This document shows, in pieces, positions 1,680-14,237 of a DNA stretch of 19,466 bases (the first letter of the stretch is position 1; the number at the start of each line of letters is the position of its first letter). The translations under genes and the position numbers were made by a program. Under the pieces are notes generated by a model. That model made no database searches and had not been told where the DNA came from. It was given only the letters and a program-made list of their open reading frames with translations. Source of the stretch: Actinomycetota bacterium. GTDB lineage: Bacteria > Actinomycetota > Actinomycetes > Nanopelagicales > Nanopelagicaceae. Location of the stretch: NCBI GenBank assembly GCA_009699645.1, contig WLNU01000010.1, positions 1 through 19,466 of the forward strand. The letters run 5' to 3'.

Positions 1680-1711
1680 CTCATTCTCCCAAGTCTCTAT
1701 GAGCAAGTAGT

Positions 1712-1742
1712 TATGATTGGCATTTGGAATCAGATGAAAGGG
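1712..1742 (+). promoter_or_regulatory. Possible uppP promoter -10 and ribosome binding site
   Basis: TATGAT at 1712-1717 matches the -10 consensus at five of six positions and would start transcription near 1724. AAAGGG at 1737-1742 is a Shine-Dalgarno sequence seven bases before the uppP ATG at 1750. No convincing -35 is seen, and read-through from the MFS gene is equally possible. Confidence 0.35.
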
Positions 1743-1749
1743 TGGCCCG

Positions 1750-2586
1750 ATGTTTGAAGTGATTTTCTTGGGAATTTTGCAGGGCCTAACCGAGTTTTTG
1801 CCGATTTCATCGAGTGCCCACCAACGTATTGCGGGGGAGTTTTTCAGTAATGCGCAAGACCCAGGCGCGCGTTTTACGGCCATTACTCAAATTGGTACTG
1901 AATTAGCTGTACTTATCTTCTTTAGGCACGACATCAAGAAAATTATCGTGGCATGGACTCGTCAAACTTTGATGCGAGCCCCACTCTCAACTGATGAAAA
2001 GCTTCAGGCTCGCATGGGTTGGTTGATTATCGTTGGATCAGTACCAATCGTTATCTTGGGCTATCTTGGAAAAGATATTATTACAAATGACATTCGCTCC
2101 TTGTGGCTCATAGCTTCGACCCTGATTATTTTCGGCATCATACTTGGAATTGCAGATCATTATGGCAAGAAAGATCGTGGACTTAGCGATTTAAAAACAT
2201 CGCACGGTATTTTGTATGGATTAGCTCAATCTCTTGCATTAATGCCAGGTGTTTCGCGATCTGGTGCAACGATAGCCATGGGCCGCTTGCTTGGTTACAG
2301 CCGTGAAGCAGCACTTCGGTACTCATTTCTGTTAGCACTGCCAGCCGTATTTGGAAGTGGTTTATATGAACTCAAAGGCGCAGTTGGCGAAAGCTCTGGA
2401 GTACAAGTCTTCACCTTAAGTCAGACTCTCATTGCTACATGCATTGCATTTGTTGTTGGTTATGCCGTTATCGCTTGGTTACTTAAATTTGTCACTACTA
2501 AAAGTTTTATGCCCTTCATCATTTACCGAGTTGTTCTTGGATCTACACTTCTAGTGTTGCTCTCACTTGGTGTCATTAATCCATAA
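1750..2586 (+). CDS. uppP: Undecaprenyl-diphosphatase UppP (BacA family)
   Basis: Integral membrane phosphatase that removes one phosphate from undecaprenyl diphosphate, recycling the lipid carrier for peptidoglycan and other wall polymers; loss or overproduction of this family changes bacitracin sensitivity. Both family signatures are present: QGLTEFLPISSSAH near residues 11-24, with the conserved acidic residue E15 and histidine H24, and MPGVSRSGAT at 165-174 with the catalytic-loop arginine R170. Length 278 residues and several hydrophobic helices fit the family. The ATG at 1750 has an AAAGGG ribosome binding site seven bases upstream. The following gene, a Ddl-like ligase, is separated by 45 bp that contain its own promoter; both have cell-wall-related families, but a functional link is only suggested. 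Confidence 0.95.
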   Translation: MFEVIFLGILQGLTEFLPISSSAHQRIAGEFFSNAQDPGARFTAITQIGTELAVLIFFRHDIKKIIVAWTRQTLMRAPLSTDEKLQARMGWLIIVGSVPIVILGYLGKDIITNDIRSLWLIASTLIIFGIILGIADHYGKKDRGLSDLKTSHGILYGLAQSLALMPGVSRSGATIAMGRLLGYSREAALRYSFLLALPAVFGSGLYELKGAVGESSGVQVFTLSQTLIATCIAFVVGYAVIAWLLKFVTTKSFMPFIIYRVVLGSTLLVLLSLGVINP

Positions 2587-2597
2587 ATAGCATTATT

Positions 2598-2631
2598 TGC
2601 TTCACGATAACCTGTGAGATATTATCTCCTA
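2598..2631 (+). promoter_or_regulatory. Leaderless promoter of the Ddl-like gene
   Basis: TTGCTT (2598-2603), a 16-bp spacer and TATTAT (2620-2625) form a sigma-70-like promoter. TATTAT ends six bases before the ATG at 2632, so transcription should begin at the A of the start codon. This excludes the in-frame GTG at 2614, which lies upstream of the predicted transcript. Confidence 0.55.
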
Positions 2632-3714
2632 ATGAGCATTTCAGAGAAGACACGCATTGCAGTACTTTTTGGTGGAGCAAATAGCGATAACTTTCGATCA
2701 TGCCAGCAGATTAAAGATGTAGTTCCAGCACTCCTTAGTCGTGAGTTTGAGGCTGAAATATTTGGCGTAACACTTGAGGGAATGTGGGTTTCTTTTACTG
2801 ATGTGCAGGCACTCCTTACTGCGACGAAAGTTGATGGATTTGAACTTTCAAATGAAAGCGCCGATAAAATCTCTGGCAGCACTCTTTCAAATTTCCCCAC
2901 CCAGGAGTTCATCTCATTTGACGCGGTTTATCCATTGATTATTGGTTTTCCGGGGGCTGATGGTTCGATAGCTGGTCTTTTTGAAGCTGTGGGAGTTAGA
3001 GTCATAGGTTCAGACTCATTGGGATCAGCGATTGCCTCCGATAAATCGACTACTAAACTTGTGCTTGAGGCTGTTGAAATTGCAACGCCAAAGCATGTAG
3101 TAATCCCAGATAAAGCTTGGCGCAGAGATGCATTGTCCAACGTTGCCCGTGCGGCTTCACTGAAGTTACCAATAGTTGTGAAGCCTTGTCGTGGCAGCAA
3201 TGGTGTTGGAATATCTTTAGTTAAGTTTCCAAATGGCATGAAGGATGCTGTAGCAATTGCCCGTCGATTCGATGGTCGTTTTATGGCCGAGGAGTACTAC
3301 AAAAATGCACGTCATTTGGAGTGTGCAGTTATGGGTGATTCTGAAAATCGTAATTATATAAGTGGGATTTTAGAGACCATAACCCACGAAGGTGAACTTT
3401 TTAATTACATTACTCGAACTGATTCAACCAAATACAGCCAAAAAATTGCAACTGATTTAGCTGACGATATTGTTGAACTAATCAAAGAGACGGCAGAGAA
3501 GGTTTTTGAGGCCCTTAAAATCTCTGGATACCTTCAAGTGGAGTTCTTGCTCACCGATGAAGACCAAGTCTTGGTTCTTGAGGCAAATGCTCACCCTTAT
3601 CTTGGAAAAGATGGTTCATTTGCTCAGGTCTGGCAAGCTGCCGGTCTTGAATATGAAGATGTCATTTATGCCGCAGTAATGGAGGCAGTACGCCGGCCAG
3701 TGGGAATGATTTAA
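2632..3714 (+). CDS. Divergent D-alanine--D-alanine ligase-like ATP-grasp protein
   Basis: A 360-residue member of the Ddl branch of ATP-grasp ligases, which join an amino acid carboxylate to an amine through an acyl-phosphate. The Ddl fold is clear: VLFGG near residues 11-15, GFPGADGS in place of HGxxGEDGT, IVVKPCRGSNGVG as the ATP-binding lysine and loop, and LEANAHP (E317, N319) for Mg binding. Several positions that define true Ddl are changed: the N-terminal SSEHEVS segment is NSDNFRS, and the RxD of the substrate site reads Q302-V-E304. The start at ATG 2632 is set by the leaderless promoter. It follows uppP and converges with the TIM-like gene, 8 bp apart. It could be a diverged Ddl or a dipeptide-type ligase with another substrate. 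Confidence 0.75.
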   Translation: MSISEKTRIAVLFGGANSDNFRSCQQIKDVVPALLSREFEAEIFGVTLEGMWVSFTDVQALLTATKVDGFELSNESADKISGSTLSNFPTQEFISFDAVYPLIIGFPGADGSIAGLFEAVGVRVIGSDSLGSAIASDKSTTKLVLEAVEIATPKHVVIPDKAWRRDALSNVARAASLKLPIVVKPCRGSNGVGISLVKFPNGMKDAVAIARRFDGRFMAEEYYKNARHLECAVMGDSENRNYISGILETITHEGELFNYITRTDSTKYSQKIATDLADDIVELIKETAEKVFEALKISGYLQVEFLLTDEDQVLVLEANAHPYLGKDGSFAQVWQAAGLEYEDVIYAAVMEAVRRPVGMI

Positions 3715-3722
3715 CTCAGCTC

Positions 3723-4466
3723 TTATAATTTCTTTTTAGAGGCCTCATACCCAGTTTGGAAAACCTTCTTATAGCCTTCAGCGCTCCATGCACTGCGCCC
3801 GACAAAGAGGCCGTCACAAGCCTGTAGAGCGCCATAAAGGGCGGCATTGTGCATATCCACAGAGCCGCCATAGAGCAGTGGAGCATTGGGGATATTCAAC
3901 GCTGACAACTCTTCCTTAATGATTGTTAAAACCGTATCTACGTACTGTGGATCGGCTGGAACCCCACCTACCCCTATCGAAAAGACGGGCTCGTAGGCGA
4001 TGATTAAATCTAATGAGCAGTGAGCAAGGGGCTCTAACTGCGCCTTGAGGAGTTTTCTGAGTGCTTCAAAGTCATGTGCCTGAAGGCTCTCGCCAATACA
4101 GAAAAGTACCCGCAGATCTTTACTCTCTGCAGCTTTAAGCTGGGCCGCGATTTCGGCATCGCTATCAAATAAGCGCCTGCGTTCGGCATGAGCAATCATC
4201 ACCAAGTCAGAGCCCAAAGCCTTAAGGGTTGCCCCTTGAACTTCACCGGTAACATCCTGTTCACTCGTTGATGAAAGCGATTGATTACCAATCCACAGAG
4301 ATGAGCCTAGAGAATTTGCTTTTAACTCTCGGAAAAAAGGGATTGAAGGCAATAGGAAAAACTGTACATCAGGATAGGTGTTAGCCAGATCTTTAGCTGC
4401 TTGGACAATCTCATGATGTGCGGCCGCGCCAAGATTGCTCTTGGTATTTGACCCAAAGTAAAACAT
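3723..4466 (-). CDS. Triosephosphate-isomerase homologue, probably a catabolic tetrulose-phosphate isomerase (EryH/LerI-like)
   Basis: A 247-residue TIM barrel that keeps the catalytic triad: K9 in SNTK, H93 in HAERR and E159 in AYEP, with CIGE (123-126) and YGGSV (199-203) also present. It departs from housekeeping TIM at signature positions: GNWK is SNTK, HSERR is HAERR, YEPVWAIGTG is YEPVFSIGVG and the phosphate-gripping DGALVGG end is DGLFVGR. TIM paralogues of this sort in Brucella (EryH) and M. smegmatis (LerI) convert L-erythrulose 1-phosphate to D-erythrulose 4-phosphate. Here it is the last gene of the importer operon, 35 bp after an ATPase gene, with RpiB and DhaK/DhaL homologues nearby, which favours that role over glycolysis. 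A tpiA for central metabolism should exist elsewhere in the genome. Confidence 0.8.
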   Translation of the reverse strand: MFYFGSNTKSNLGAAAHHEIVQAAKDLANTYPDVQFFLLPSIPFFRELKANSLGSSLWIGNQSLSSTSEQDVTGEVQGATLKALGSDLVMIAHAERRRLFDSDAEIAAQLKAAESKDLRVLFCIGESLQAHDFEALRKLLKAQLEPLAHCSLDLIIAYEPVFSIGVGGVPADPQYVDTVLTIIKEELSALNIPNAPLLYGGSVDMHNAALYGALQACDGLFVGRSAWSAEGYKKVFQTGYEASKKKL

Positions 4467-4501
4467 CCCGCCTCACATTCGAAATTTAACGAGCACGAGA
4501 A

Positions 4502-5566
4502 TTAAATGGCAGCCCCATTTTCATCAAACATAATAATGTCATTAGAGTTAACACTAGTCCAAACATTCTCACCGATTTCACGACCACGTTGGTGCGGCAC
4601 GCGTGCCTTAACCTTGAGGGAGCCATACTCCAAATCAAGTAAGTACTGACCGCCGATTCCAAGTGACTTACGGACAACACGGGCTGCACGGGACTGTGGA
4701 GTTTGCTTGGTATGAACTTCAATTGCTTCGGCTCTTACGCCAAGCACTTTAACTTTCGATGCCATCGAACCGGCTTCAAGGGTCTGAGAAAATAGTGATG
4801 AAGTTATTCCGCTACCAGTTTGACTGATGTGCTCTTTCTCAATGAAGTTAATACCTGGATTACCAAGGAACCACCCTGCGAACTGGCTCTTGGGCCTCTC
4901 ATAAATCTCTTTTGGCGGGGCACATTGGGTAATTACGCCATCTTGCATGAGTGCGATTTGATCGGCGAGTGTCATAGCTTCGGTCTGATCATGAGTTACA
5001 TAGACAATTGTCTGTGAGAGGCGACTAAAGACCTCTTTCAAAGAGCGCTTCAGCTCTAACTTGGCAGTGATGTCGATATTTGTAATGGGCTCATCAAAGA
5101 GGATTATTTGAGGTTGGCGCGCGATAGCTCGCCCTACAGCGATCTTCTGCCGTGTTCCGTTATCGAGCTCCTCAACCATCTTATTTAAATCCCCTGAAAT
5201 TCCAAGCAGATCGGCAACATCATGGACACGCTTAGAAATCTCTTCCTTACTCAACTTTTCAGTTAGCAGTGGAAGCTCTAAGTTGCGCTTGACGCTTGTG
5301 CCGCGATAGATCACGGGATACTGAAAAACCATACCTAGATTACGGCGCTTGGTTGGAACACGGGTAACTTCAATATCATCGAAGAAAATATTTCCAGATG
5401 TTGGAACCTCAAGCCCAGCGATCATGCGCATCAAGGTTGTTTTTCCACATCCTGATGGCCCAAGAAGCACGGTTACAGAGGACTTTGGAATTGTGAAGGT
5501 GATGTCATCAACTGCATTTAATGAACCAAAACTCTTTGTGACGTTCTTTAAATTAATGTCATACAC
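4502..5566 (-). CDS. MalK-like ABC importer ATPase with degenerate signature motif
   Basis: Cytoplasmic ATPase of a carbohydrate/polyol ABC importer: an N-terminal nucleotide-binding domain and a C-terminal TOBE-like region, 354 residues. Walker A is GPSGCGKT (36-43), Q-loop FQYP near 81-84, Walker B IILFDEP with D158 and catalytic E159, and H-loop H192 in VTHDQTEA. The ABC signature is unusual: LDNGTRQ at 134-140 instead of LSGGQxQ. The partner ATPase encoded just upstream has the opposite defects. The start is uncertain: GTG at 5566 gives an 8-base overlap with the upstream gene and the usual short N-terminus, while GTG at 5575 and an in-frame start at 5608 are alternatives. It matches the GlpS/GlpT arrangement of two distinct ATPases. 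Confidence 0.88.
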   Translation of the reverse strand: MYDINLKNVTKSFGSLNAVDDITFTIPKSSVTVLLGPSGCGKTTLMRMIAGLEVPTSGNIFFDDIEVTRVPTKRRNLGMVFQYPVIYRGTSVKRNLELPLLTEKLSKEEISKRVHDVADLLGISGDLNKMVEELDNGTRQKIAVGRAIARQPQIILFDEPITNIDITAKLELKRSLKEVFSRLSQTIVYVTHDQTEAMTLADQIALMQDGVITQCAPPKEIYERPKSQFAGWFLGNPGINFIEKEHISQTGSGITSSLFSQTLEAGSMASKVKVLGVRAEAIEVHTKQTPQSRAARVVRKSLGIGGQYLLDLEYGSLKVKARVPHQRGREIGENVWTSVNSNDIIMFDENGAAI

Positions 5567-6650
5567 GGGCGACACCTGTACCAATCTTTTTCTTTGAGGC
5601 AGAATCAAAAAGTGTAATTGCCTCTGGCTTGATGGAGATTGTTAGATCTTTGGACTCAAGTAGCTTGATTCCTTCGATATCTGTTCGAGAAACTACAGTT
5701 ATAAATTGAGTACCTTTAACATCAAGGTAGGCAGCAAATTCAGAGCCCAAATTTTCCAGCAGCGTTAATGAGGCGCTCACTGAGATTGTTCCTGGGTGTT
5801 TGCCTATCAAAATACCCTCAGGTCGAATCCCTGCAATGGCGGCAGTACTTTTTCCAGCAACATCAACAACGGCCTCAAATATTTCAGAGGTGAAATTCGA
5901 ACCCTGAATTTTTCCTGGTACTACGTTTGCCTCAGGAAAGCCTAAAGTTGTCATCGAAGGCAATGAAGAAGGGGCATCATAGACATCGACTAGAGCGCCC
6001 TGTTGAACGATCTTGCCATCGGCTAAAATCATTACAGTCTTAGCTAATTGCAGAGCTTCAAGTGGGTCAGAGGTGATGTATAGGAAGGCTACTTTTAGCT
6101 GCTCCTGTGTCAAGCGTAAATCTTCAATGAGCCGCTCACGGAGTTTAAAGTCCAAACCAACGAGTGGATCATCTAAGACATACACATCTGTAGCCTTTGA
6201 GAGTCCACGCGCGATTGCAACTCTCTGCTTTTGACCACCAGAGAGCTGAACTGGCATCTTTTCAAGCAGGTCCCCAATTTTTAGTAGCTCGGAAACTCGA
6301 TCAACGGCTTCGGCTTTTGCTTCCTTGCTAGCCTTAATCAAATCAAGTGGATATTCGATGTTCTTACGAACAGAAAAATGTGGGTAGAGCGCAAATGACT
6401 GCGGAATATAACCAATATTTCGCGAGCCTGAATCGGCCTCTGTAACGACTTGACCACGGACAATAATTTGACCAGAGTCCACCTCTTCAAGACCCATGAT
6501 TGTTCGAACAAGTACAGATTTTCCATTACCTGGCTTTCCACATATTACTGAAAAGTCATTGAGAGCTGCGGTAAATGAGAGATCTCTCAATACAGATTTA
6601 TCTCCGTAGGATTTGGATAACCCCTTTACCTCTAACGCTGAGTTCGACAT
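5559..6650 (-). CDS. MalK-like ABC importer ATPase with degenerate Walker B and H-loop
   Basis: Second nucleotide-binding subunit of the same importer, 363 residues with a C-terminal TOBE-like region. Walker A is GKPGNGKS (38-45), the Q-loop is PQSFALYP (84-91), and the signature QLSGGQKQR (135-143) is fully canonical. The catalytic half is not: Walker B reads VYVLDDP with D161 where the general-base glutamate is expected, and the switch histidine of the H-loop is serine (S194 in YITSDPLEA). Alone it should hydrolyse ATP poorly; paired with the downstream ATPase it supplies the good LSGGQ to that subunit's good Walker site. The ATG at 6650 is preferred over the in-frame TTG at 6659, because AGGAG lies only two bases before the TTG but a workable distance before the ATG. 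Confidence 0.88.
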   Translation of the reverse strand: MSNSALEVKGLSKSYGDKSVLRDLSFTAALNDFSVICGKPGNGKSVLVRTIMGLEEVDSGQIIVRGQVVTEADSGSRNIGYIPQSFALYPHFSVRKNIEYPLDLIKASKEAKAEAVDRVSELLKIGDLLEKMPVQLSGGQKQRVAIARGLSKATDVYVLDDPLVGLDFKLRERLIEDLRLTQEQLKVAFLYITSDPLEALQLAKTVMILADGKIVQQGALVDVYDAPSSLPSMTTLGFPEANVVPGKIQGSNFTSEIFEAVVDVAGKSTAAIAGIRPEGILIGKHPGTISVSASLTLLENLGSEFAAYLDVKGTQFITVVSRTDIEGIKLLESKDLTISIKPEAITLFDSASKKKIGTGVARV

Positions 6651-6664
6651 TGTTTTCAACTCTC

Positions 6665-6952
6665 CTAAACTCGACCAAGATTAACAAGGAATGGAGTCAC
6701 AGCGATTGAAAGTGCAAAAACAGCAGCGACTATTGCTAAGTAAAGAAGGATCTTTTTAATCGAGCGTGCAGCGCCCCATTCAGGCTTAATATTGCCGACT
6801 GCCACCTGTAGCGGAACAAGAACTAAGAGGGCTCGAAAACCCCAGACGTAAACGGTATAAGAGAAGCTCTGCGCTAGCAGGAGGAGACATAGTCCAAGTA
6901 ACCAAATAAGTGTTAATTGCAGACGGGCTGCGAAAGGAGTGTCGGTTTTCAT
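6665..6952 (-). CDS. Small membrane protein of the ABC importer (GlpU-like position)
   Basis: A 95-residue protein with three hydrophobic segments (about residues 12-30, 33-52 and 68-90) separated by short charged loops, and no signal peptide cleavage site. Its ATG directly follows the TAG stop of the upstream permease without any gap, and the first ATPase gene begins 14 bp after its stop, so it is translated as part of the transporter operon. The rhizobial glycerol importer operon glpSTPQUV contains a comparable small membrane protein gene (GlpU, DUF2160) among its permease and ATPase genes. I infer it is an accessory membrane subunit; I cannot show homology to GlpU by eye, and its function is not established. 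Confidence 0.75.
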   Translation of the reverse strand: MKTDTPFAARLQLTLIWLLGLCLLLLAQSFSYTVYVWGFRALLVLVPLQVAVGNIKPEWGAARSIKKILLYLAIVAAVFALSIAVTPFLVNLGRV

Positions 6953-7810
6953 CTATACCTCTCCTCGGACAGTTCCAAATGTGAGTCCAACGAGTAAGTA
7001 TTTCTGAAAGAAGAAAATTACTAATGCCAATGGCATTACATACAGAGTTCCAATTGAGGCGACAAAGGACCAGTCAACCTGTCCGCCCTTTGTGATGGAT
7101 GTAAAGAGTCCCACTGGAATTCCATAGGTTTTTAGGCCACCCAGCTGGAAATTAAAGAGGAACTCATTCCAAACAAAGATGATATTGAAAACGAATGCTG
7201 CAACTAGACCAGAACGCACTTGTGGCAGGATTACCTTAAACATAATGTGCGCCCTCGATGCCCCGTAGACCATTCCAGTCTCATCAAACTTTGTCGATAC
7301 TCCATCCATAAAACCCTTTAAGATCCAGACTGAAAAGGGAATCGAAAACATTGTGTAGAAAATGATTAGACCTGGGAATGAGTCTTTCAACTTTAAGATA
7401 TTGAAAAGTTGGAAGAACGGGATAACAAAGGCTGCAGCAGGGACAAAGCGAGTTGAGAGCAGCAAGAACATAATGAAGTCGGTTCCAGCTGGCTTGAAAC
7501 GAGAGAAGGAGTAAGAGGCTAGAAAGGAGACAAAGATTGCAAGGAATACCGAGATGAATGAGTAGATTGCGCTATGGACAAAGTAGGCGAGAGTATTTGC
7601 AAAATTAATTGCATCTAATAAATTTTGAAAAGTCGGCATGAATAAAAAATTCGGTGGAATATCAAGGACTGTGGTCTTAGGCTTTAGCGCAGTCCCAATA
7701 ATCCAAGCGATAGGTAAAAAGAAGAGAATTGACGTGGACCAAGCCAGCAGAGTAAGGAAACTGATAGGACCTTTTCGGCGACTTGGCTTCATTGTGGCTG
7801 CAGTGCTCAT
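6953..7810 (-). CDS. ABC sugar/polyol permease, MalG type
   Basis: Inner-membrane permease subunit of 285 residues with about six transmembrane helices, the first at roughly residues 17-40. The cytoplasmic EAA loop that docks on the ATPase is visible as ETGMVYGASRAHIMFKVILP, with E177 and the conserved glycine G183, followed by the usual proline. It forms the translocation pore with the MalF-type permease upstream. Its ATG shares the sequence ATGA with the stop codon of that gene, implying translational coupling. A GAGG lies seven bases before the start. The short, charged N-terminus (RRKG) before helix 1 is normal for the family. Confidence 0.93.
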   Translation of the reverse strand: MSTAATMKPSRRKGPISFLTLLAWSTSILFFLPIAWIIGTALKPKTTVLDIPPNFLFMPTFQNLLDAINFANTLAYFVHSAIYSFISVFLAIFVSFLASYSFSRFKPAGTDFIMFLLLSTRFVPAAAFVIPFFQLFNILKLKDSFPGLIIFYTMFSIPFSVWILKGFMDGVSTKFDETGMVYGASRAHIMFKVILPQVRSGLVAAFVFNIIFVWNEFLFNFQLGGLKTYGIPVGLFTSITKGGQVDWSFVASIGTLYVMPLALVIFFFQKYLLVGLTFGTVRGEV

Positions 7811-8751
7811 CCTTGGGCCTCAGCTTTCTTGCGGGCGTTTAATACATGAAGGTAAATCGCCGTTAGGGCGATTGCAATAAAGAGTAAGAAGACTGAAACC
7901 GCAGAGGCGTATCCCAATTTGAAAGATTTAAACGCGAATCGATATAGGGAGAGTGCAATTAACTCAGTTCGATCTCCCGGACCACCGTTGGTCATGATGT
8001 ATGTCAGGTCCATAGTCTTGAATGCATCGATTGAACGGAGCAGAATTCCAAGCATGAGAATAAATTTTGCGTGTGGCCAAATAACGGTGGTAATTTGACG
8101 GTGAATCGGAAGTTTATCCACAGAGGCCGCTTCAAGCTCGGCCTTAGGTACTGATCCAAGGGCTGCAAGTGTCATCAGCGCCATAAATGGCGTCCACATC
8201 CATGTATCGACAACGATTAAAGTTGGGAATGCAAGGTTCGAGTCAGTCAGAAAATCTACCTTAGACAAACCCAGAGAGGTTAAGAAGTAGTTCATCACAC
8301 CAAAAGTTGGATCAAGGATGAGCTTCCAAAATAGCGCCGTTGCAATCGGTGTCACAACCATTGGTGTGAAGAAAAGAGTCAGAGCAAAGCGGCGGCCGGG
8401 CATTTTGTCATTTTTCCAAAATAGGACTCCTATTAAAATCCCAAGAAAAGTCTGACAAATAATGGCGATGATTAAGAAAACAAAAGTTCGGGATACAGAT
8501 TGAGATAGCTGTTCATTTTTCACAAAATCCAAATAGTTGCTAAAACCAGTAAATGTAGCCCCTTTAGAAGAGGTGAGCGTGTAGTCATAAAAACTTAAGC
8601 CCAACATCCAAATTGTCGGCAGGATATTCATAAGTGCAAAAAAGATTAAAACCGGTATTAAGAGAATCCAGCTCATCCGCTTATTTGCACGGGCTCTAGT
8701 AGATGTCTTCTCCTTTATTGAAGACTCGAACTTTGCTACCTTCTCACTCAC
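7807..8751 (-). CDS. ABC sugar/polyol permease, MalF type
   Basis: Inner-membrane permease subunit of about 314 residues with six predicted helices after a charged, lysine-rich N-terminal tail. The EAA loop is ELEAASVDKLPIHRQITTVIWP, weaker than in the partner because the conserved glycine is replaced (DK in place of the usual DGA-type turn). The GTG at 8751 is preferred: AAAGGG sits six bases upstream, the same ribosome binding site used by the binding-protein gene. An in-frame GTG at 8766 gives five more residues but has AAGG only two bases away. The gene follows the binding-protein gene after a strong stem-loop, so its mRNA level is probably set by read-through. Confidence 0.92.
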   Translation of the reverse strand: MSEKVAKFESSIKEKTSTRARANKRMSWILLIPVLIFFALMNILPTIWMLGLSFYDYTLTSSKGATFTGFSNYLDFVKNEQLSQSVSRTFVFLIIAIICQTFLGILIGVLFWKNDKMPGRRFALTLFFTPMVVTPIATALFWKLILDPTFGVMNYFLTSLGLSKVDFLTDSNLAFPTLIVVDTWMWTPFMALMTLAALGSVPKAELEAASVDKLPIHRQITTVIWPHAKFILMLGILLRSIDAFKTMDLTYIMTNGGPGDRTELIALSLYRFAFKSFKLGYASAVSVFLLFIAIALTAIYLHVLNARKKAEAQG

Positions 8752-8797
8752 TGATATCCCTTTCACAACCTTATTATTAATTATTGCAGAGTAACAG

Positions 8798-8841
8798 AAA
8801 AAGATTGTCCTAGTGTCAAGAAAAACGACACTAGGACAATC
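8798..8841 (-). terminator. Intrinsic terminator or attenuator between binding protein and permease genes
   Basis: On the minus strand a perfect 15-base stem, GATTGTCCTAGTGTC (right-hand copy 8827-8841, left-hand copy 8803-8817), encloses a 9-base loop and is followed at once by TTTTT (8802-8798). It lies 16 bp after the binding-protein stop and 46 bp before the permease start. This is the layout of a partial terminator that lets the binding protein be made in excess and also protects the 3' end of its mRNA. Confidence 0.85.
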
Positions 8842-8857
8842 CTATATTTCTAGAGTT

Positions 8858-10369
8858 TTAGAGCTTAAGTGAATCTACGTTTGCAGGTGGTTCAGTCTTT
8901 GTGCGACCAGCCTTGAATAAAATCTGCTGTTGCTTTGCAGCAGCATATTCAAGAGCAGCAGCAGCGCTCTTTACCTGACCTGTTGCAAATCCATTAAATG
9001 CCTCTTGCTGAACTGCAAGCATTTCTGCATATTCAGGTAAGTGCCAGAAGTCCTGTGAACGACCTTCTTCTAGCATGGAAAGGAATGGCTTTACATAGTG
9101 TGAGCTCTCTAGGTACTCAGGATTTGCAGCACCTTCGGCGCTCCAAGGCAATCCACCGTTTTCTAGGATGAACTTGTCTTGAGTCTCCTTGGTGTACCAC
9201 CACTTGAGAACGTCAACAGCAACGCGCATGTGATCGTCATCGTTGAATGCATTAATCACCCAAGGCTGTCCACCCATAGCACCGATCAACTGTCCATTCC
9301 ACTTAGGAAGTGGGATAGACATAACCTTGCTCGCTGGCACCTTATCTGATGACATGAACTTGCCAATTGCAAGCCATTGCCATGCTGAGAAGGCTTTACC
9401 TTGTGTGAATAGATCGATCATGTCGCCAATACCAAATGCTGCAAAGTTCTTTGGCTGGTACTTCGAGAGTCCTACGAACTGCTCCATCGCTGCAGCATTT
9501 TCAGGGGAGTTCAAGATGCCATAGACATCATTTGTAGCTGGATCCCAGATCTTTCCACCTGTTGAATATGCAAATGGGTAGTAGGCACAGCTAAAGAAGT
9601 CATACTCCTTTGAGTACATCAACGCTGTTCCATACATTCCCTTTGATGGGCGGTGGAAGAAGTCGATGATTTCAACAAGATCTACGTATTCGATCTGGCT
9701 AAGAACTTCATATGTTGATGGAAGATCTTTACCAGTCTTCTTCTTAAATGCAGCCTGCTCTTTTGGATCCTCAAGCATGTCCTTGCGAAGGAATATTCCT
9801 TGAGTATCAGGCATCTGTGGGAATCCCCAACGGATACCAGAACCATCTGGATATACCTGGTAAGTATTAGTTACCAAAGATGAGAACGGGGCAATGTCTA
9901 GATCTGGATTAGCAGCAAAGACATCATCTGCCTTAACAATCCAACCTGGCTCTGATAGTGCACCTAACCACTGTGAGTCAACAACTAATAGGTTGAACTC
10001 CTGTGATTGTGATGCAAGTGTTGGTGCAACTTTCTGGAAGAGCTCACCAAATGGTGCCTCTGCGAAAGTAATTTTATTTACTGTGTATCCGTAATTTGCT
10101 AGTGCATAGGCTTGGAAATCTGCCCACTGTGTCTCTGGAGCAGCACTAGGTGGCCAACCACCAATACGTGAATAGGCAAAATCAATAGTCTTGCCCTTCA
10201 TGTTTTCTGCATTGCTTCCATAGAGCGGACTATCTTTTGCTACTGCGCTAGAATCATCACCCTTGCTGCATGCAGCAAGAAGGCCAGACATTGAAACTGC
10301 AGCAACAGCTGCAGCCCCGCCTTTCAGTACCATTCGGCGGTCTATATTCTTATCGGTAATCGTTGACAA
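8858..10369 (-). CDS. ABC importer solute-binding lipoprotein with Tat-type signal
   Basis: Extracellular solute-binding protein of family 1 (MalE/UgpB/GlpV-like), 503 residues, that captures the sugar or polyol and delivers it to the permeases. The N-terminus has a twin arginine (R11-R12 in DRRMVLKGG), a small hydrophobic core and a lipobox LAAC ending in C34, so it should be exported folded by Tat and anchored as a lipoprotein. The mature part is rich in tryptophan and aromatic patches (GGWPPSAAPETQW, QWLGAL, AWQWLAIG), common in carbohydrate binders. The TTG start at 10369 is supported by AAAGGG seven bases upstream; no ATG is near. It is the first gene of the importer operon and is divergent from the RpiB gene. 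Confidence 0.92.
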   Translation of the reverse strand: MSTITDKNIDRRMVLKGGAAAVAAVSMSGLLAACSKGDDSSAVAKDSPLYGSNAENMKGKTIDFAYSRIGGWPPSAAPETQWADFQAYALANYGYTVNKITFAEAPFGELFQKVAPTLASQSQEFNLLVVDSQWLGALSEPGWIVKADDVFAANPDLDIAPFSSLVTNTYQVYPDGSGIRWGFPQMPDTQGIFLRKDMLEDPKEQAAFKKKTGKDLPSTYEVLSQIEYVDLVEIIDFFHRPSKGMYGTALMYSKEYDFFSCAYYPFAYSTGGKIWDPATNDVYGILNSPENAAAMEQFVGLSKYQPKNFAAFGIGDMIDLFTQGKAFSAWQWLAIGKFMSSDKVPASKVMSIPLPKWNGQLIGAMGGQPWVINAFNDDDHMRVAVDVLKWWYTKETQDKFILENGGLPWSAEGAANPEYLESSHYVKPFLSMLEEGRSQDFWHLPEYAEMLAVQQEAFNGFATGQVKSAAAALEYAAAKQQQILFKAGRTKTEPPANVDSLKL

Positions 10370-10420
10370 GAGTTATCCCTTTCCCCCAAAGACAGACCCA
10401 GGTGGACTGTCCGTGTAGAG

Positions 10421-10449
10421 ATTCTTGGGTAGTCACGCTCAACTGTCAA
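10421..10449 (-). promoter_or_regulatory. Promoter of the importer operon
   Basis: On the minus strand a perfect TTGACA -35 (10449-10444) is followed by a 17-bp spacer and AAGAAT (10426-10421) as a weak -10. It would start near 10414 and give a leader of about 45 bases ending in the AAAGGG ribosome binding site. A strong -35 with a poor -10 suits an activator-dependent or repressible promoter. The leader contains a short inverted repeat (GACAG at 10391-10395 with CTGTC at 10407-10411). Confidence 0.5.
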
Positions 10450-10495
10450 GGACTTTGGGTAATTCTTCGATGACAATGTTGTAACATTTATAACA
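10425..10495. promoter_or_regulatory. Candidate operators in the importer/RpiB divergent region
   Basis: TTGGGTA occurs twice in direct orientation, at 10425-10431 and 10455-10461, exactly 30 bp (about three helical turns) apart; the first touches the importer -10 and the second lies just upstream of its -35. Further right is the palindrome AATGTT-GT-AACATT (10475-10488), with TAACA repeated at 10482-10486 and 10491-10495. These are plausible regulator sites shared by the two operons. No regulator gene is in the window to pair them with. Confidence 0.35.
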
Positions 10496-10557
10496 GGCTA
10501 AAGCAGCCACTCAATCGATTATCTCAAAATGTGAAACCAACTCTGGAGGCGTCAAAA

Positions 10558-11016
10558 GTGAGAATTGCCGTCGGATCGGATTTCATCGGCTGGGAGCTCA
10601 AAGCCACACTCACAGAGCTACTCAAGGCCCATCCACAAGTTACAGCCTTAGAGGATCTAGGTGTTGCCAGCCGGGAGGATAAGAGCGACTACCCAGATAT
10701 TGGCTTTGCGCTCGCGCGCTTTATTGCACAAGGCAAGGCCGATAGAGGCCTTCTTATCTGTGGCACAGGAATCGGAATGGCGATTTCGGCCAACAAGGTT
10801 CCCGGGATTCGGGCAGCGACCACGCATGACCCCTATTCATTAGAGCGGGCTATTTTGAGCAATAACTGTCAAATAATTTGTATGGGTGCCAGAGTTGTAA
10901 CTGCCGAGCTAGCCAAGAGCCTGATTGCGCCCTGGCTTGAGTACACATTCGATCCTGCAGGAGCATCGAGTTCTAAGGTAGATAAAATCAATGCATTAGA
11001 GCGAGAAGGGCTGTGA
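10558..11016 (+). CDS. rpiB: RpiB/LacA/LacB-family sugar-phosphate isomerase, probably a tetrose-phosphate isomerase
   Basis: A 152-residue aldose-ketose isomerase of the RpiB fold, the normal family length. It has VGSD (5-8), DYP (44-46), the active-site C68 in CGTGIG and the phosphate-loop ANKVPGIRAA. Compared with E. coli ribose-5-phosphate isomerase B, the histidine after D8 is F9 and the one in SRQHND is serine (S101), so the sugar-handling residues differ. Relatives in erythritol/threitol catabolism convert D-erythrulose 4-phosphate to D-erythrose 4-phosphate. The GTG at 10558 is chosen because GGAGG (10545-10549) lies eight bases upstream; the longer in-frame start at 10531 would put that site inside the gene. 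It is divergent from the importer operon and overlaps the next gene. Confidence 0.88.
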   Translation: MRIAVGSDFIGWELKATLTELLKAHPQVTALEDLGVASREDKSDYPDIGFALARFIAQGKADRGLLICGTGIGMAISANKVPGIRAATTHDPYSLERAILSNNCQIICMGARVVTAELAKSLIAPWLEYTFDPAGASSSKVDKINALEREGL

Positions 11017-11528
11017 TGAAAGAGGCAACGATAGTTTTTCCAATAGCCGACGGAGTTGAGGATTTAGAGTACTACGTAACTCGTATGCGATTAGAAGAGG
11101 CAGGATTTAGAGTCCTTAGCGCTGGGATTACCAAAGATGATGTCATTGGTAAGAATGGTCTAGTTATCTCTGTCGATGTGATTCTCTCAGAAGTACGGGC
11201 CGATGATCTCGTCGGTTTGGTTTTAGCTGGCGGATGGGCTCCAGATAAGTTGCGCCGATATAGTTTTGTAAATGATTTAATTCGATCAATCAACGAGCAG
11301 AATAAAGTGATTGGAATTATCTGTCACGGTGGATCTATGGCGATTTCTGCAGGTATTGTTAAAGGAAAGCGATCAACGGGCTCTCTAGGAATTAAGGATG
11401 ATCTAGTTAACGCGGGAGCAATCTGGGTCGATGAATCGGCCTTTACCGAAGGAAATTTAGTATGGGGCCGGGTAGTTGCCGACATTCCTAACTTCTGTCG
11501 CGAACTGGTCGCAGCCTTTACACGCTAG
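11016..11528 (+). CDS. DJ-1/PfpI family protein
   Basis: A 170-residue class I glutamine-amidotransferase-like protein of the DJ-1/PfpI superfamily. The nucleophile elbow is GIICHGG with C103 followed by H104, and the usual acidic partner is E15 in DGVEDLEYY. AGGWAPDKLRR (71-81) matches the conserved surface loop of PfpI-like members. Family members are described as glyoxalase III-like enzymes, aldehyde- or glycation-repair enzymes, or proteases; which applies here is unknown. The ATG at 11016 overlaps the rpiB stop as TGATG and has GAAGGG five bases upstream, so the two are translationally coupled; an in-frame GTG at 11013 is less well placed. Linkage to sugar-phosphate enzymes hints at dealing with reactive short-chain carbonyls. 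Confidence 0.85.
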   Translation: MKEATIVFPIADGVEDLEYYVTRMRLEEAGFRVLSAGITKDDVIGKNGLVISVDVILSEVRADDLVGLVLAGGWAPDKLRRYSFVNDLIRSINEQNKVIGIICHGGSMAISAGIVKGKRSTGSLGIKDDLVNAGAIWVDESAFTEGNLVWGRVVADIPNFCRELVAAFTR

Positions 11529-11553
11529 ATAGAGCACTGACAAGGCTTGTTAA

Positions 11554-12198
11554 TTAAGCCCCATCAACTCCATCGGCAATGGCCTGCAAAATAATCGCCA
11601 ATGAGGTCGCGCCAGCATCTTGGAAGCCAATAGCCCGCTCCCCAAGCCTTGCAGCACGGCCCTTTTTAGGTATTAAATCCTTAGTTGCAATGGCTGCATC
11701 GAGGGCCGCCTTTGCTGTGGAGTGAAGGGCATCGCTGAGTGATCCACCTTTAGTTGACAGTGATTTGATGTGATCAACTGCTGGGAAAAAAGAGTCCAGC
11801 ATTGTTTTATCTCCGAGCTCGGCCTTACCAAGAAGCTGAATTGAGATGGCCATCGCTTCATAGAGCTCGGCCCAGTCAGAGATATTATTTAGGTTATCTT
11901 TATTTGCGGCAGATGTTGCCGCTGCAGCAAATGCAGCTTCATAGAGTGGTCCAATAGTTGCGCCAACATCATCGGCATATGCCTCGGCTGCGGTTTGAAA
12001 AACCTCTGATGGCGCAACTGATTCATCAAAGCCCTTCATTGCGCGAGCAACGGCGCGCATTCCAATTGTCATTGAAACTCCGTGATCACCATCTCCGACT
12101 TCGCCATCTAATTCACACAGATAATCCTTATTTTCCTCAACCTTTTTAGCTACATGAATCAGAGTCTGCGCGATGACATGGCCATTAATAGGCTTCAT
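11554..12198 (-). CDS. dhaL: DhaL-type ATP-binding subunit of a ketose kinase
   Basis: Nucleotide-binding subunit (DAK2/DhaL domain, 214 residues) of a dihydroxyacetone-kinase-type enzyme; it phosphorylates the ketose bound covalently by DhaK. The Mg-ATP motif is LDGEVGDGDHG, with D31, D36 and D38 in the positions used by DhaL for the two metal ions, followed by a helical bundle with GDKTMLDSFFPA and the GRAARLGERAIGFQDAGATS nucleotide loop. The ATG at 12198 is chosen because AGGAGG (12213-12208 on the minus strand) lies nine bases upstream, overlapping the dhaK stop; longer in-frame starts reach into dhaK. No DhaM phosphotransfer subunit is in the window, so an ATP-dependent two-subunit kinase is the simpler reading. 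Its 3' end converges on the DJ-1 gene, 25 bp apart. Confidence 0.92.
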   Translation of the reverse strand: MKPINGHVIAQTLIHVAKKVEENKDYLCELDGEVGDGDHGVSMTIGMRAVARAMKGFDESVAPSEVFQTAAEAYADDVGATIGPLYEAAFAAAATSAANKDNLNNISDWAELYEAMAISIQLLGKAELGDKTMLDSFFPAVDHIKSLSTKGGSLSDALHSTAKAALDAAIATKDLIPKKGRAARLGERAIGFQDAGATSLAIILQAIADGVDGA

Positions 12199-12211
12199 GG
12201 TGTTCCGCCTC

Positions 12212-13207
12212 CTAGATTTTCTTGTACATACATGTATCAATGACTGAGTTAGTAATCAAGTCATGCATCTCTGTATCAAGGCGCATGAGACTAACTGAAA
12301 CCCCGGCCATTTCTAGGGCAGTTACTTGCTCGCCTACATGCTTAAAGCGAATATTTATACTATTAGCATCGCAAATCTGCTTTACTCGACGATAAACAAC
12401 ATAGAGCTCTTCGGCAGGTGAGCCCCCTAGACCATTTACGAGTAGGGCTACATCGCTACCCTTGTAATCAAGATCTGCCAAAATAGATTCAACGATTTCA
12501 TCAATAACTGAGTCAATTCCACGGGCCTTTACCCGCTTGATACCTGGTTCACCGTGAATTCCAAGGCCAATTTCCATCTCATCATCTGGCAGGGTAAAAG
12601 TTGGCTGGCCATTTGCCGGCACAATGCACGAGGTCAGACCCACACCCACAGTGCGAGTGTTGTTATTTGCCTTATTCGTCACTGCAACAACTTCATCGAG
12701 TGAGGCCATCTGCTCGGCCTTTGCGCCAGCTACATGCCAGACAAGAAAAAGACCACCGATACCACGACGCTTTGAGGCTGACTCCTTTGGTGCAGATAAA
12801 ACATCATCGTTGAGAACCACTGATTGGACAGGAATTCCCATCTCGCGGCACTGGTCTTGGGCCTTATCAAAGTTGATGCAATCTCCTTGATAGTTTCCGT
12901 AGGAATACATAACTCCAGCTCCACCATTTACCGCAACGGTGGCCTCAACAATTGGTTTTGATGGAGGGGATGCAAAGATATTTCCAAAGGCTGCGCCATC
13001 GGCCATACCTTTACCGACATATCCTGCAAAGGCGGGTAAGTGTCCAGATCCTCCGCCAACAACGATTCCAACCTTGCCGGCAATAGGGGATTGAATTCGC
13101 GCAATCGAGCGCTTACCTACAGGTTTAATAATCTGGTCATTGGCTGAAATGAAGCCCTCAAACATCTCATCTACGACTTCAAATGGATCATTAATAAGTT
13201 TCTTCAC
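12212..13207 (-). CDS. dhaK: DhaK-type substrate-binding subunit of a ketose kinase
   Basis: Substrate subunit (DAK1 domain, 331 residues) that holds a short ketose as a hemiaminal on a histidine. All three key residues fall at the same numbers as in E. coli DhaK: H56 in GGGSGH, D109 in NYQGD and the covalent H218 in LGIHGEPG. The loop after H56 is LPAFAGYVG rather than the typical EPAHAGYVG, changing two residues near the substrate. Members of this subfamily in mycobacteria phosphorylate erythruloses. The GTG at 13207 has AAGGG nine bases upstream. It follows the PfkB gene after 76 bp and precedes dhaL by 13 bp. Dihydroxyacetone itself remains a possible substrate. Confidence 0.93.
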   Translation of the reverse strand: MKKLINDPFEVVDEMFEGFISANDQIIKPVGKRSIARIQSPIAGKVGIVVGGGSGHLPAFAGYVGKGMADGAAFGNIFASPPSKPIVEATVAVNGGAGVMYSYGNYQGDCINFDKAQDQCREMGIPVQSVVLNDDVLSAPKESASKRRGIGGLFLVWHVAGAKAEQMASLDEVVAVTNKANNNTRTVGVGLTSCIVPANGQPTFTLPDDEMEIGLGIHGEPGIKRVKARGIDSVIDEIVESILADLDYKGSDVALLVNGLGGSPAEELYVVYRRVKQICDANSINIRFKHVGEQVTALEMAGVSVSLMRLDTEMHDLITNSVIDTCMYKKI

Positions 13208-13283: not shown

Positions 13284-14237
13284 TTAGTCTCCTAGTGGCA
13301 GGGTAGGCGTAGATTCCATGAAGGCGCGCGTTGACTCTAAGTCGATGATTCCAGCGTCGGAGCCAAGGCCTGATGCAACAAGTGAGCCACAGGCACTGCC
13401 AAGTTGTGCTGCCTTTGTCACTGACATGTGGAGGGAGAGGCCAGCGATAAAGCCAGCGCTCCAGGCATCGCCACACCCTGTTGTGTCGACTAGTTTTACT
13501 TTATATGCGGGCACACGAACTCTCTGACCACTTGCACTCAGAATCAGACTTCCGCGCTCGCCCATTTTTAACACTACATTCTTAGCGCCAGCATCCAGGA
13601 AGTACTGACACATCTGATCGGGATCAGATAAGCCGGTGATCATGCCCGCCTCCTCCAGATTCGGCATAAAGTAATCAAGATATGGCATGCAGGGAAGTAT
13701 TTTTTCGGCCATATTCTCTTGCTGCACACCCAAAATATCCATCGTCGTTATCGCCCCTGATTGCTTGGCACATTGCAAAGCTTTAACCGTATCTGGCCCA
13801 TCAAATTTGGGCATTAGATAAAAACCACCGATATGAACAAAATCGGCCTGTGCAACAACTTCAAGCGGAACATCCTCAAAGCTAAAAACCGCATTAGAGC
13901 CCATCACGTGTAGAGCTGGGCGCTCACCATTTGGGCGGATGGGCAAAATAGATCCCGAAGTCTGTACACCATCTTTTCTAGCTAGATATTTAGTGTTAAC
14001 ACCGTATCGATTTAGAATGCCGATGAGAATATTTCCCATTTCATCATTTCCAACTGCGCCAACTGCAGTGACGCTGCACCCAAGTTTTGCTAAGTCAACC
14101 GAAGTTCCAGCCGCAGTGCCTGCAGCAGTGATTCGAATCTCATCAATGAGTGAAATTCCCTGCCCGGGCGGAATCTCAGAGACATGTCGGCCTAATACAT
14201 CCAGAATATGGACGCCCATTGAAACTATCTCTGTCAT
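13284..14237 (-). CDS. PfkB-family carbohydrate kinase
   Basis: A 317-residue ribokinase-like (PfkB) kinase that would phosphorylate a free sugar or keto-sugar with ATP. The first PfkB signature region is visible as AAGTAAGTSVDLAKLG (38-53) followed by GAVGNDEMG, and the second as DTTGCGDAWSAGF (251-263) with the catalytic base D257; the usual GAGD anion hole reads GCGD. Length is typical. The ATG at 14237 has an AAGGGAGG ribosome binding site five bases upstream. It is the first gene of the kinase operon and is divergent from the aldolase-dehydrogenase gene, which suggests it makes the ketose phosphate that the aldolase splits. Family-level data do not fix the substrate. Confidence 0.9.
   Translation of the reverse strand: MTEIVSMGVHILDVLGRHVSEIPPGQGISLIDEIRITAAGTAAGTSVDLAKLGCSVTAVGAVGNDEMGNILIGILNRYGVNTKYLARKDGVQTSGSILPIRPNGERPALHVMGSNAVFSFEDVPLEVVAQADFVHIGGFYLMPKFDGPDTVKALQCAKQSGAITTMDILGVQQENMAEKILPCMPYLDYFMPNLEEAGMITGLSDPDQMCQYFLDAGAKNVVLKMGERGSLILSASGQRVRVPAYKVKLVDTTGCGDAWSAGFIAGLSLHMSVTKAAQLGSACGSLVASGLGSDAGIIDLESTRAFMESTPTLPLGD

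Follow-up and report, generated by a model that had tools for sequence, protein, structure and literature searches.

Layout of the cassette

The window analysed here is a stretch of 19,466 nucleotides (positions 1 to 19,466 of contig WLNU01000010.1, assembly GCA_009699645.1) from an Actinomycetota bacterium of the family Nanopelagicaceae. Between positions 3723 and 14237, set between two flanking blocks, it carries a compact gene cassette in which homologs of triosephosphate isomerase (TIM) and RpiB, a DhaK/DhaL kinase and a PfkB-family kinase accompany an ATP-binding cassette (ABC) importer. A first-pass annotation, made from the letters alone, had read positions 3723..13207 as a ketotetrose or tetritol catabolic locus with its own importer. 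The genes it named (TIM, RpiB, DhaK, DhaL, ABC importer) are all long open reading frames (ORFs) of these families, but the interval it gave ends one gene too early. PfkB (13284-14237) is also part of the cassette; the first-pass gene list missed this member, as well as the overlap of a PfpI gene with RpiB.

The importer genes and TIM form one minus-strand run (10369 to 3723), divergent from RpiB. It begins with a solute-binding lipoprotein (SBP; SBP_bac_1, PF01547; 8858-10369), for which we predict a short ketose as ligand, and continues with permease A (7807-8766), permease B (6953-7810), a small membrane protein of 95 residues (6665-6952), the UgpC/MalK-like ATPase 2 (5559-6659), the UgpC/MalK-type ATPase 1 (4502-5608) and TIM (3723-4466), a predicted L-erythrulose-1-phosphate isomerase. 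Permeases and ATPases were assigned by family match and conserved gene order. Judging from the reading frames, the true start of ATPase 1 probably lies inside its ORF, since the latter overlaps ATPase 2. On the plus strand, RpiB (10531-11016), a predicted D-erythrulose-4-phosphate isomerase, overlaps by 4 bases a PfpI/DJ-1 family gene (11013-11528). This pair (10531-11528) is convergent with a minus-strand run (14237 to 11554) of PfkB, DhaK (12212-13207) and DhaL (11554-12240), the nucleotide-binding kinase subunit; PfkB lies 76 bases upstream of DhaK. No regulator is seen between 3723 and 14237.

Both isomerases group apart from housekeeping enzymes

Are the two isomerases of the cassette housekeeping TpiA and RpiB, or do they belong with the tetrulose phosphate isomerases of the LerI/EryH and DerI/EryI types? 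The TIM homolog (PF00121, 140 bits) has as its best PDB match the L-erythrulose-1-phosphate isomerase 11ef (E 1.5e-31), the next TIM following at 3.3e-22. In a 49-row tree, 30 cassette TIMs join EryH of the Rhizobium erythritol locus (L081), its relative from R. etli and the non-cassette copies L099 and L101 in a clade of 34 with support 100/99; outside it fall 14 canonical TpiAs of cassette-bearing genomes and E. coli TpiA. All 35 TIM-clade sequences carry the motif GR[SAF][AG][WLH] (GRSAW in 22, GRAAW in 9, and four single variants), the TpiA counterpart being GGA[SA]L in 15 of 15 (GGASL 13, GGAAL 2). The catalytic K, H and E are conserved in 35/35, and S96 is replaced by A in 21/35.

The tree program warned that long branches meet inside the LerI clade; on rebuilding, the split between LerI and TpiA was recovered at 100/99 without L010-L012 and at 100/100 without the window's own group. 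This window-type group (20 rows, 100/99) comes from Actinomycetota-like contigs, Chloroflexota and Thermomicrobiota. Rows left out of the tree were L009 (a full ORF of the L010-L012 type), the fragment L043, re-fetched duplicates and the fragments L110-L112, of which L110 and L112 are pieces of a TpiA broken in the draft genome G010 and L111 is an end-of-contig piece from G002. Taken together, the comparison supports well, at family level, the assignment of the TIM homolog to the LerI/EryH type, apart from canonical TpiA.

RpiB (PF02502, 149 bits) scores best against NF051858, the NCBIfam model for DerI, at 160.4 bits, which does not pass the cut-off of 240; by its name this model is rhizobial. 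The tree places RpiB in a clade of 31 that includes EryI (100/96), outside which fall 11 canonical second copies and E. coli RpiB. The columns agree with this division. In E. coli numbering, the clade has H99 replaced by S and H134 by S, each in 32/32, and R137 by K or N in 32/32; H10 is lost in 31/32 and C66 is kept in 32/32. The other 12 RpiBs all keep H10, H99, R133 and R137, with C66 in 7 and G in 5. H99 has been proposed to assist in opening the ribose ring; as tetrulose and tetrose 4-phosphates lack such a ring, its loss fits a C4 substrate. Here the rows left out were L005 (a near-duplicate), L009, L137 and L138 (partial), duplicates, and L140, which the ORF search missed. Assignment of RpiB to the DerI/EryI type, apart from canonical RpiB, is thus likewise well supported at family level by its sequence relatives. 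Neither isomerase, then, groups with the housekeeping enzymes, and the first-pass annotation pointed to the right relatives, EryH and EryI.

A non-canonical dihydroxyacetone kinase-type enzyme

DhaL (PF02734) passes TIGR02365 with 158.3 against a cut-off of 138.3. DhaK (PF02733, 363 bits) stays under the DhaK equivalog cut-off, with 347.6 against 406.25. Among 60 DhaK sequences aligned, H56, D109 and H218 are conserved throughout; H60 is replaced by F or Y and K104 by G in 53, the window's protein (H60 to F, K104 to G) included. Both H60 and K104 are kept in seven, namely E. coli DhaK, the first copy in L019, two copies in L022, and those of L041, L062 and L073. The DhaK trees were quick trees with no bootstrap, rows below 80% query cover being left out.

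A DhaM subunit is absent from 7/7 genomes of actinobacterial kin, and none lies near the window's kinase. The donor for DhaK/DhaL is therefore probably ATP. PfkB together with this kind of DhaK accompanies two importer types.

Conservation of the cassette and separate canonical copies

Scanning species-level genome contigs with an alignment of the SBP yielded 192 confirmed loci. We analysed the best 80, and counts over these 80 include loci cut by contig ends. Homologs of the small membrane protein occur in 56 of them, of DhaK in 46, DhaL in 41, PfkB in 39, TIM in 31, RpiB in 26 and PfpI in 12, the last all on Actinomycetota-like contigs; 6 have a full-length aldolase/short-chain dehydrogenase (SDR) fusion. 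TIM, RpiB and DhaK together lie within 10 kb of the SBP in 17/80 loci from three phyla (8 Actinomycetota-like contigs, 4 Chloroflexota, 5 Alphaproteobacteria), and 14 of the 17 also have PfkB. In one of the 17, L020, the DhaK match is a fragment of another copy, and the cassette-type DhaK lies about 5 kb beyond the fetched stretch. All four enzymes stand near the importer in the isolates Rhodobacter sp. SW2, Aurantimonas and Aureimonas.

Could such linkage arise by chance? The 33 loci of at least 21.3 kb hold four of these enzymes (TIM, RpiB, DhaK, PfkB) in 9 cases, three in 6, two in 11 and one in 5. TIM is found in 17/33, one of these (L026) being a canonical TpiA. By our own arithmetic, with some two TIM genes per genome and genome sizes of 1-5 Mb, a TIM gene would fall in a 21-kb stretch about 1-4% of the time. 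The linkage of TIM to the importer is more than chance.

We then asked of 15 genomes with the cassette importer whether they encode canonical enzymes besides, the first-pass annotation having attached weight to another tpiA or rpi gene. A separate intact canonical TpiA is present in 13 and in pieces in G010. An RpiB match is found in 14/15; a full canonical RpiB occurs in ten (G002, G003, G004, G005, G007, G008 with two, G009, G010, G013, G014), in G001 it is partial, and the second RpiB match of G015 is partial as well. Since RpiA is absent from all seven actinobacterial kin searched, canonical RpiB is probably the housekeeping enzyme there. The first-pass reading survives both this check and that of isomerase grouping; the draft G015 has no canonical TpiA.

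Some genomes vary the arrangement. G008 has no cassette TIM; about 4 kb beyond DhaK, its contig carries a TIM with the GRSAW motif that sits on a long branch. In G015 (Thermomicrobiales), DhaK and RpiB are 0.9 kb apart on another contig. In L032, RpiB-TIM is followed by one regulator gene and then a transaldolase, which fits erythrose 4-phosphate as product. The closest SBP loci, L001 (an Actinomycetota metagenome-assembled genome, MAG) and L004 (a Ca. Nanopelagicaceae MAG from Lake Baikal), are 89-90% identical and have the same Ddl gene on the same side; they fit the freshwater actinobacterial host that had been supposed for the window.

Other genes adjoin the cassette in its kin. In L010, a xylose isomerase of the Arthrobacter type (8421-9590; 622 bits, cut-off 447) ends 0.2 kb before the SBP ORF; homologs occur in L009, L011, L012, L015, L036 and L048, only the L010 copy having been profile-scanned. 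Kin, but not the window, carry a gene run (GntR, creatininase-like, UPF0261, sugar-epimerase-like, GlcD-type FAD oxidase) within or beside the cassette, in L010 at 755-6099 and in L002, L003, L005, L006 and L020 between DhaL and PfpI wherever the locus has both; in L002, L003 and L005 it takes up about 7 kb there. L005 and L010 are MAG contigs titled Bifidobacterium breve and Rubrivirga, with cassettes near-identical to those of Nanopelagicales or other Actinomycetota MAGs, so their titles or binning are probably wrong.

Importer and intergenic regions

The importer is composed of the SBP, two permeases, two UgpC/MalK-like ATPases and the 95-residue membrane protein. Read from the sequence, the SBP leader is of a twin-arginine-like lipoprotein type (RR...LAAC). 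A structural model of the SBP (mean pLDDT 83.5) has CUT1 sugar binders as fold neighbours, for example 6dtq, 5iai and 1eu8. The small membrane protein matches no Pfam family over cut-off, DUF2160 included. We considered a glycerol importer of the Rhizobium GlpSTPQUV kind as the identity of this system and set it aside: the small membrane protein is without DUF2160 over cut-off, and the listed plasmid permease matches are 32-35% identical.

The divergent promoter region between SBP and RpiB (10370-10530) contains a TTGAC box common to 7/7 aligned loci and a GTTAY-like box in about 5/7. Palindromes were compared as a candidate shared operator, and their letters differ between the window and its kin. 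An inverted repeat (10370-10440, minus strand) lies just before the SBP start, and repeats with other arm letters hold the same place in L001, L002, L004 and L006; a leader hairpin or an operator is possible. Only in L004 is folding of this repeat clearly stronger than that of shuffled sequences (z -4.64, against -0.22 in the window). The repeat has no Rfam match, nor did an Rfam scan of the whole window return any family. The spacer between SBP and permease A (8767-8857, minus strand) holds a further inverted repeat with 11-bp arms, possibly a cause of higher SBP expression.

The aldolase/SDR fusion and the flanking genes

At the right edge of the cassette region, beside PfkB, lies a gene for an aldolase/SDR fusion (14363-16342). 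Its best models are PRK08324.1-4 (534.8 bits, cut-off 1014) and RhaD_aldol-ADH (496.3, cut-off 567.75). The first-pass annotation had seen no stand-alone polyol dehydrogenase, and we too see none among the ORFs between 3723 and 14237; its suggestion that the SDR domain might supply the activity finds weak support at best. In its favour, a full-length relative lies within 10 kb of the SBP in 6/80 loci (with an 81% fragment in L015), and in G004, where the contig breaks off, the first 26 residues of the fusion adjoin PfkB just as they do in the window. Against it, the ortholog (64-72% identical) lies away from the cassette, beside MtnA or a homolog, in five kin genomes (G002, G003, G005, G006, G010). 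Because of this placement we tentatively conclude that the fusion lies outside the cassette and is probably not the dehydrogenase of the pathway. A natural erythrulose-monophosphate route by way of the RhaD-like domain was also considered, an idea taken from PMC10733421; it was rejected, as RhaD yields the D form, for which EryC is required, and no EryC-like gene is seen in the window.

In the Nanopelagicales themselves the fusion keeps company with MtnA in L164 (6921-17900), L168 (1612-12599), L165, L166 and L167. MtnA is over cut-off in L164, a 54-92% homolog in L166, L167 and L168, and a piece at the contig end in L165. Two of these loci, L164 and L168, add a CUT2 sugar importer, represented among the L164 neighbours by a CUT2 permease, and MtnK, which is over cut-off in L164 and in L168 is a 93% homolog. 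A RubisCO-like protein, under cut-offs in L164, and split transketolase genes also occur in L164, L165, L166 and L168. The loci appear to import and salvage 5-methylthioribose or 5-deoxyribose, with an odd branch of RubisCO-like protein and transketolase.

Beyond the fusion, the right flank of the window contains a 460-residue protein (16374-17756) with no NCBIfam match and a TldD-like protein (17753-19255). The left flank holds a major facilitator superfamily protein, UppP and a Ddl-like ligase.

Proposed pathway and alternatives

What does the cassette do? We think it rather probable that it imports a C4 ketose and converts it to erythrose 4-phosphate. A C4 keto-sugar, most likely L-erythrulose and possibly the D form or a close short ketose, would enter through the CUT1-like importer with its lipoprotein receptor and two different ATPases. 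DhaK-DhaL and ATP would convert L-erythrulose to L-erythrulose 1-phosphate, the TIM homolog would turn this into D-erythrulose 4-phosphate, and the DerI-type RpiB would then give erythrose 4-phosphate. At the level of sequence, both isomerases lie in the EryH and EryI clades with matching active-site columns, the DhaK is non-canonical, and the linkage is conserved; the DhaK/TIM/RpiB tetrulose pathway of the first-pass annotation thus appears largely right. From these data we infer the substrate, its stereochemistry, ATP as donor and import of the ketose itself. For the remaining genes we can only guess: PfkB may, as a second kinase, act on another isomer or some related sugar, and PfpI may limit carbonyl damage from a reactive open-chain sugar.

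A number of observations weigh against this interpretation. TIM, RpiB and DhaK all score below NCBIfam equivalog cut-offs, and the public names read 'dihydroxyacetone kinase' for relatives of DhaK and, for most relatives of TIM, 'triosephosphate isomerase'. The window-type TIM is a sister of the alphaproteobacterial EryH clade, not within it, and carries S96A. It also evolves fast: on its group's long branch, it is the least conserved cassette gene relative to L001 (58%, compared with 94% for DhaK and 91-92% for the permeases). The fold neighbours of the SBP are mainly binders of disaccharides and oligosaccharides and indicate only the general CUT1 binder class. Among the 33 full loci, two lack all four enzymes. 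Among the genomes, the draft G015 has only the cassette-type TIM, the draft G006 is without an RpiB or DhaK match, and G011 and G012 have only the EryI-type RpiB, RpiA having been searched in neither. The proposed pathway leaves PfkB without explanation, xylA or Gfo/Idh genes lie near the cassette in some kin, and in L022 and L073 the same SBP family adjoins a canonical DhaK together with a DhaM-EI fusion, whose DhaM domain passes the cut-off in L073 and scores 94.4 against 98.25 in L022. This last link suggests that the SBP family is a receptor for short ketoses generally, perhaps C3 sugars, or for a larger sugar that yields them.

Might the importer take up a tetritol, erythritol or threitol, to be oxidized to erythrulose by a dehydrogenase encoded elsewhere and then processed as in the M. 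smegmatis-type pathway? An Arthrobacter plasmid locus (L171) combines these three enzyme types with two alcohol dehydrogenases, and the TIM-RpiB pair also belongs to rhizobial erythritol loci (PMC3599248). A 55% relative of one L171 dehydrogenase exists in G005, and kin genomes hold many SDRs that could serve. Against this, the cassette has no polyol dehydrogenase, and in the other 6/7 kin the best match by E-value to that dehydrogenase, the one of the two L171 enzymes that was searched, is 26-32% identical. EryA, EryB and EryC are likewise missing among the window's ORFs, and EryA matches reach 16.8-78.9 bits, at most 29% identical, in 4/7 kin, with none in 3. Because there is no cassette dehydrogenase, the L171 enzyme has a close match only in G005 and EryA matches do not exceed 29%, import of the ketose itself would be the simplest reading, and we regard the tetritol as unlikely, if still worth serious consideration.

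It is less likely again that the importer takes a larger or branched sugar (apiose or apionate, or a pentose or hexose phosphorylated by PfkB), DhaK-TIM-RpiB handling a C4 or C3 product. PfkB in 24/33 and DhaK in 27/33 full loci would suit it, as would the receptor fold, the aldolase/SDR relatives near the SBP in 6/80 loci, and the xylA (over cut-off), Gfo/Idh and xylose-isomerase-like genes adjoining the L010 cassette; a TIM-RpiB pair of R. etli, moreover, counts OiaX and a four-carbon acid sugar kinase among its neighbours, at distances of up to about 10 kb. However, no aldolase or decarboxylase is as widely shared as the importer and kinases among the gene clusters listed, and the neighbours just named vary between loci.

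That the locus merely takes up and phosphorylates dihydroxyacetone or glycerol, beside an ordinary TIM and RpiB, is very improbable: the DhaK/DhaL families, their public names and the canonical DhaK and DhaM-EI fusions beside the same importer family in L022 and L073 speak for it, but the window's DhaK is without the H60 and K104 of seven canonical DhaKs, its TIM is not TpiA-like, its RpiB is not canonical, and 7 kin genomes have no DhaM.

Relation to known systems

Several known systems share parts of the cassette. The Rhizobium/Brucella erythritol locus (eryABC with eryR-tpiB-rpiB, a module documented in PMC3599248) has an adjacent LerI-type TIM and DerI-type RpiB that share clades and marker residues with those of the window. 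It uses the FGGY kinase EryA, EryB, EryC and a CUT2-type importer, whereas the window has DhaK/DhaL, a CUT1-like importer and no eryABC.

The Arthrobacter plasmid locus L171 carries a CUT2 importer with DUF2291, two alcohol dehydrogenases, a one-chain DhaK-family kinase, RpiB, TIM and a DeoR regulator, a layout matching that of tetritol use in M. smegmatis; it serves here as a proxy of predicted function. Like the window, L171 shows the DhaK residue changes (HYPAF, GNYAGD; its kinase branch is long) and A at TIM position 96, and its RpiB falls in the window's 14-row subclade (100/100); its TIM (GRFAH) is a long branch of unsure place. The window differs from L171 in that DhaK and DhaL are separate, dehydrogenases of this kind are lacking, the importer has two ATPases, and PfkB and PfpI are present. 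The M. smegmatis enzymes LerK/DerK, LerI, DerI and tetritol dehydrogenases are named in PMC12780249 and PMC10733421, the latter documenting LerI, DerI, LerK and EltD in E. coli.

With the phosphotransferase system (PTS)-type dihydroxyacetone kinase DhaKLM, the window has the DhaK and DhaL families in common, but DhaM is missing from its locus and 7 kin genomes, and H60 and K104 are replaced. Plasmid operons of Roseibium and Paracoccus share PfkB (45-46% identical) and DhaK/DhaL with the window, and the Paracoccus DhaKs are non-canonical, as in the window; the Roseibium PfkB-DhaK/DhaL-CUT2 operon adjoins, by annotation, an ery-like gene run. Both differ in having a CUT2 importer, an extra regulator-DhaK fusion and no TIM or RpiB in the operon. 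Such fusions of a sugar-binding regulator to a DhaK domain, with DhaK/DhaL beside, occur in alphaproteobacteria at L045:18696-20762, L170:9915-12002 and L173:4056-6125, and possibly represent a ligand-sensing use of DhaK.

The enzymes are thus of known kinds; their pairing with this importer was not found described in the literature searched by title. No title among the top-ranked matches concerned a tetrulose importer, or such a locus in freshwater actinobacteria, a literature search by S. meliloti locus tag returned no paper, and the main text of PMC7527133 contains no dihydroxyacetone, glycerone, erythr- or polyol. According to PMC12780249 (2025), tetrose uptake and catabolism are still to be elucidated, and tetrose-specific transporters and kinases are unreported.

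For tetrose uptake the cassette offers concrete candidate genes, both in a lake lineage and in named alphaproteobacterial isolates, and with the residue markers annotators can tell this DhaK type, LerI and DerI apart from canonical dihydroxyacetone kinase, TpiA and RpiB. A broader proposal, which we put forward tentatively and hold to be somewhat doubtful, is that the cassette is dedicated to taking up and phosphorylating free short ketoses (erythrulose, and dihydroxyacetone in related loci) in Actinomycetota, Chloroflexota, Alphaproteobacteria and, in part, Thermomicrobiota; PfkB would then be a second kinase for tetroses, and PfpI would repair carbonyl damage. If so, it would be the transporter-kinase pair called unreported in PMC12780249, and free tetroses would be a real carbon source in lakes.

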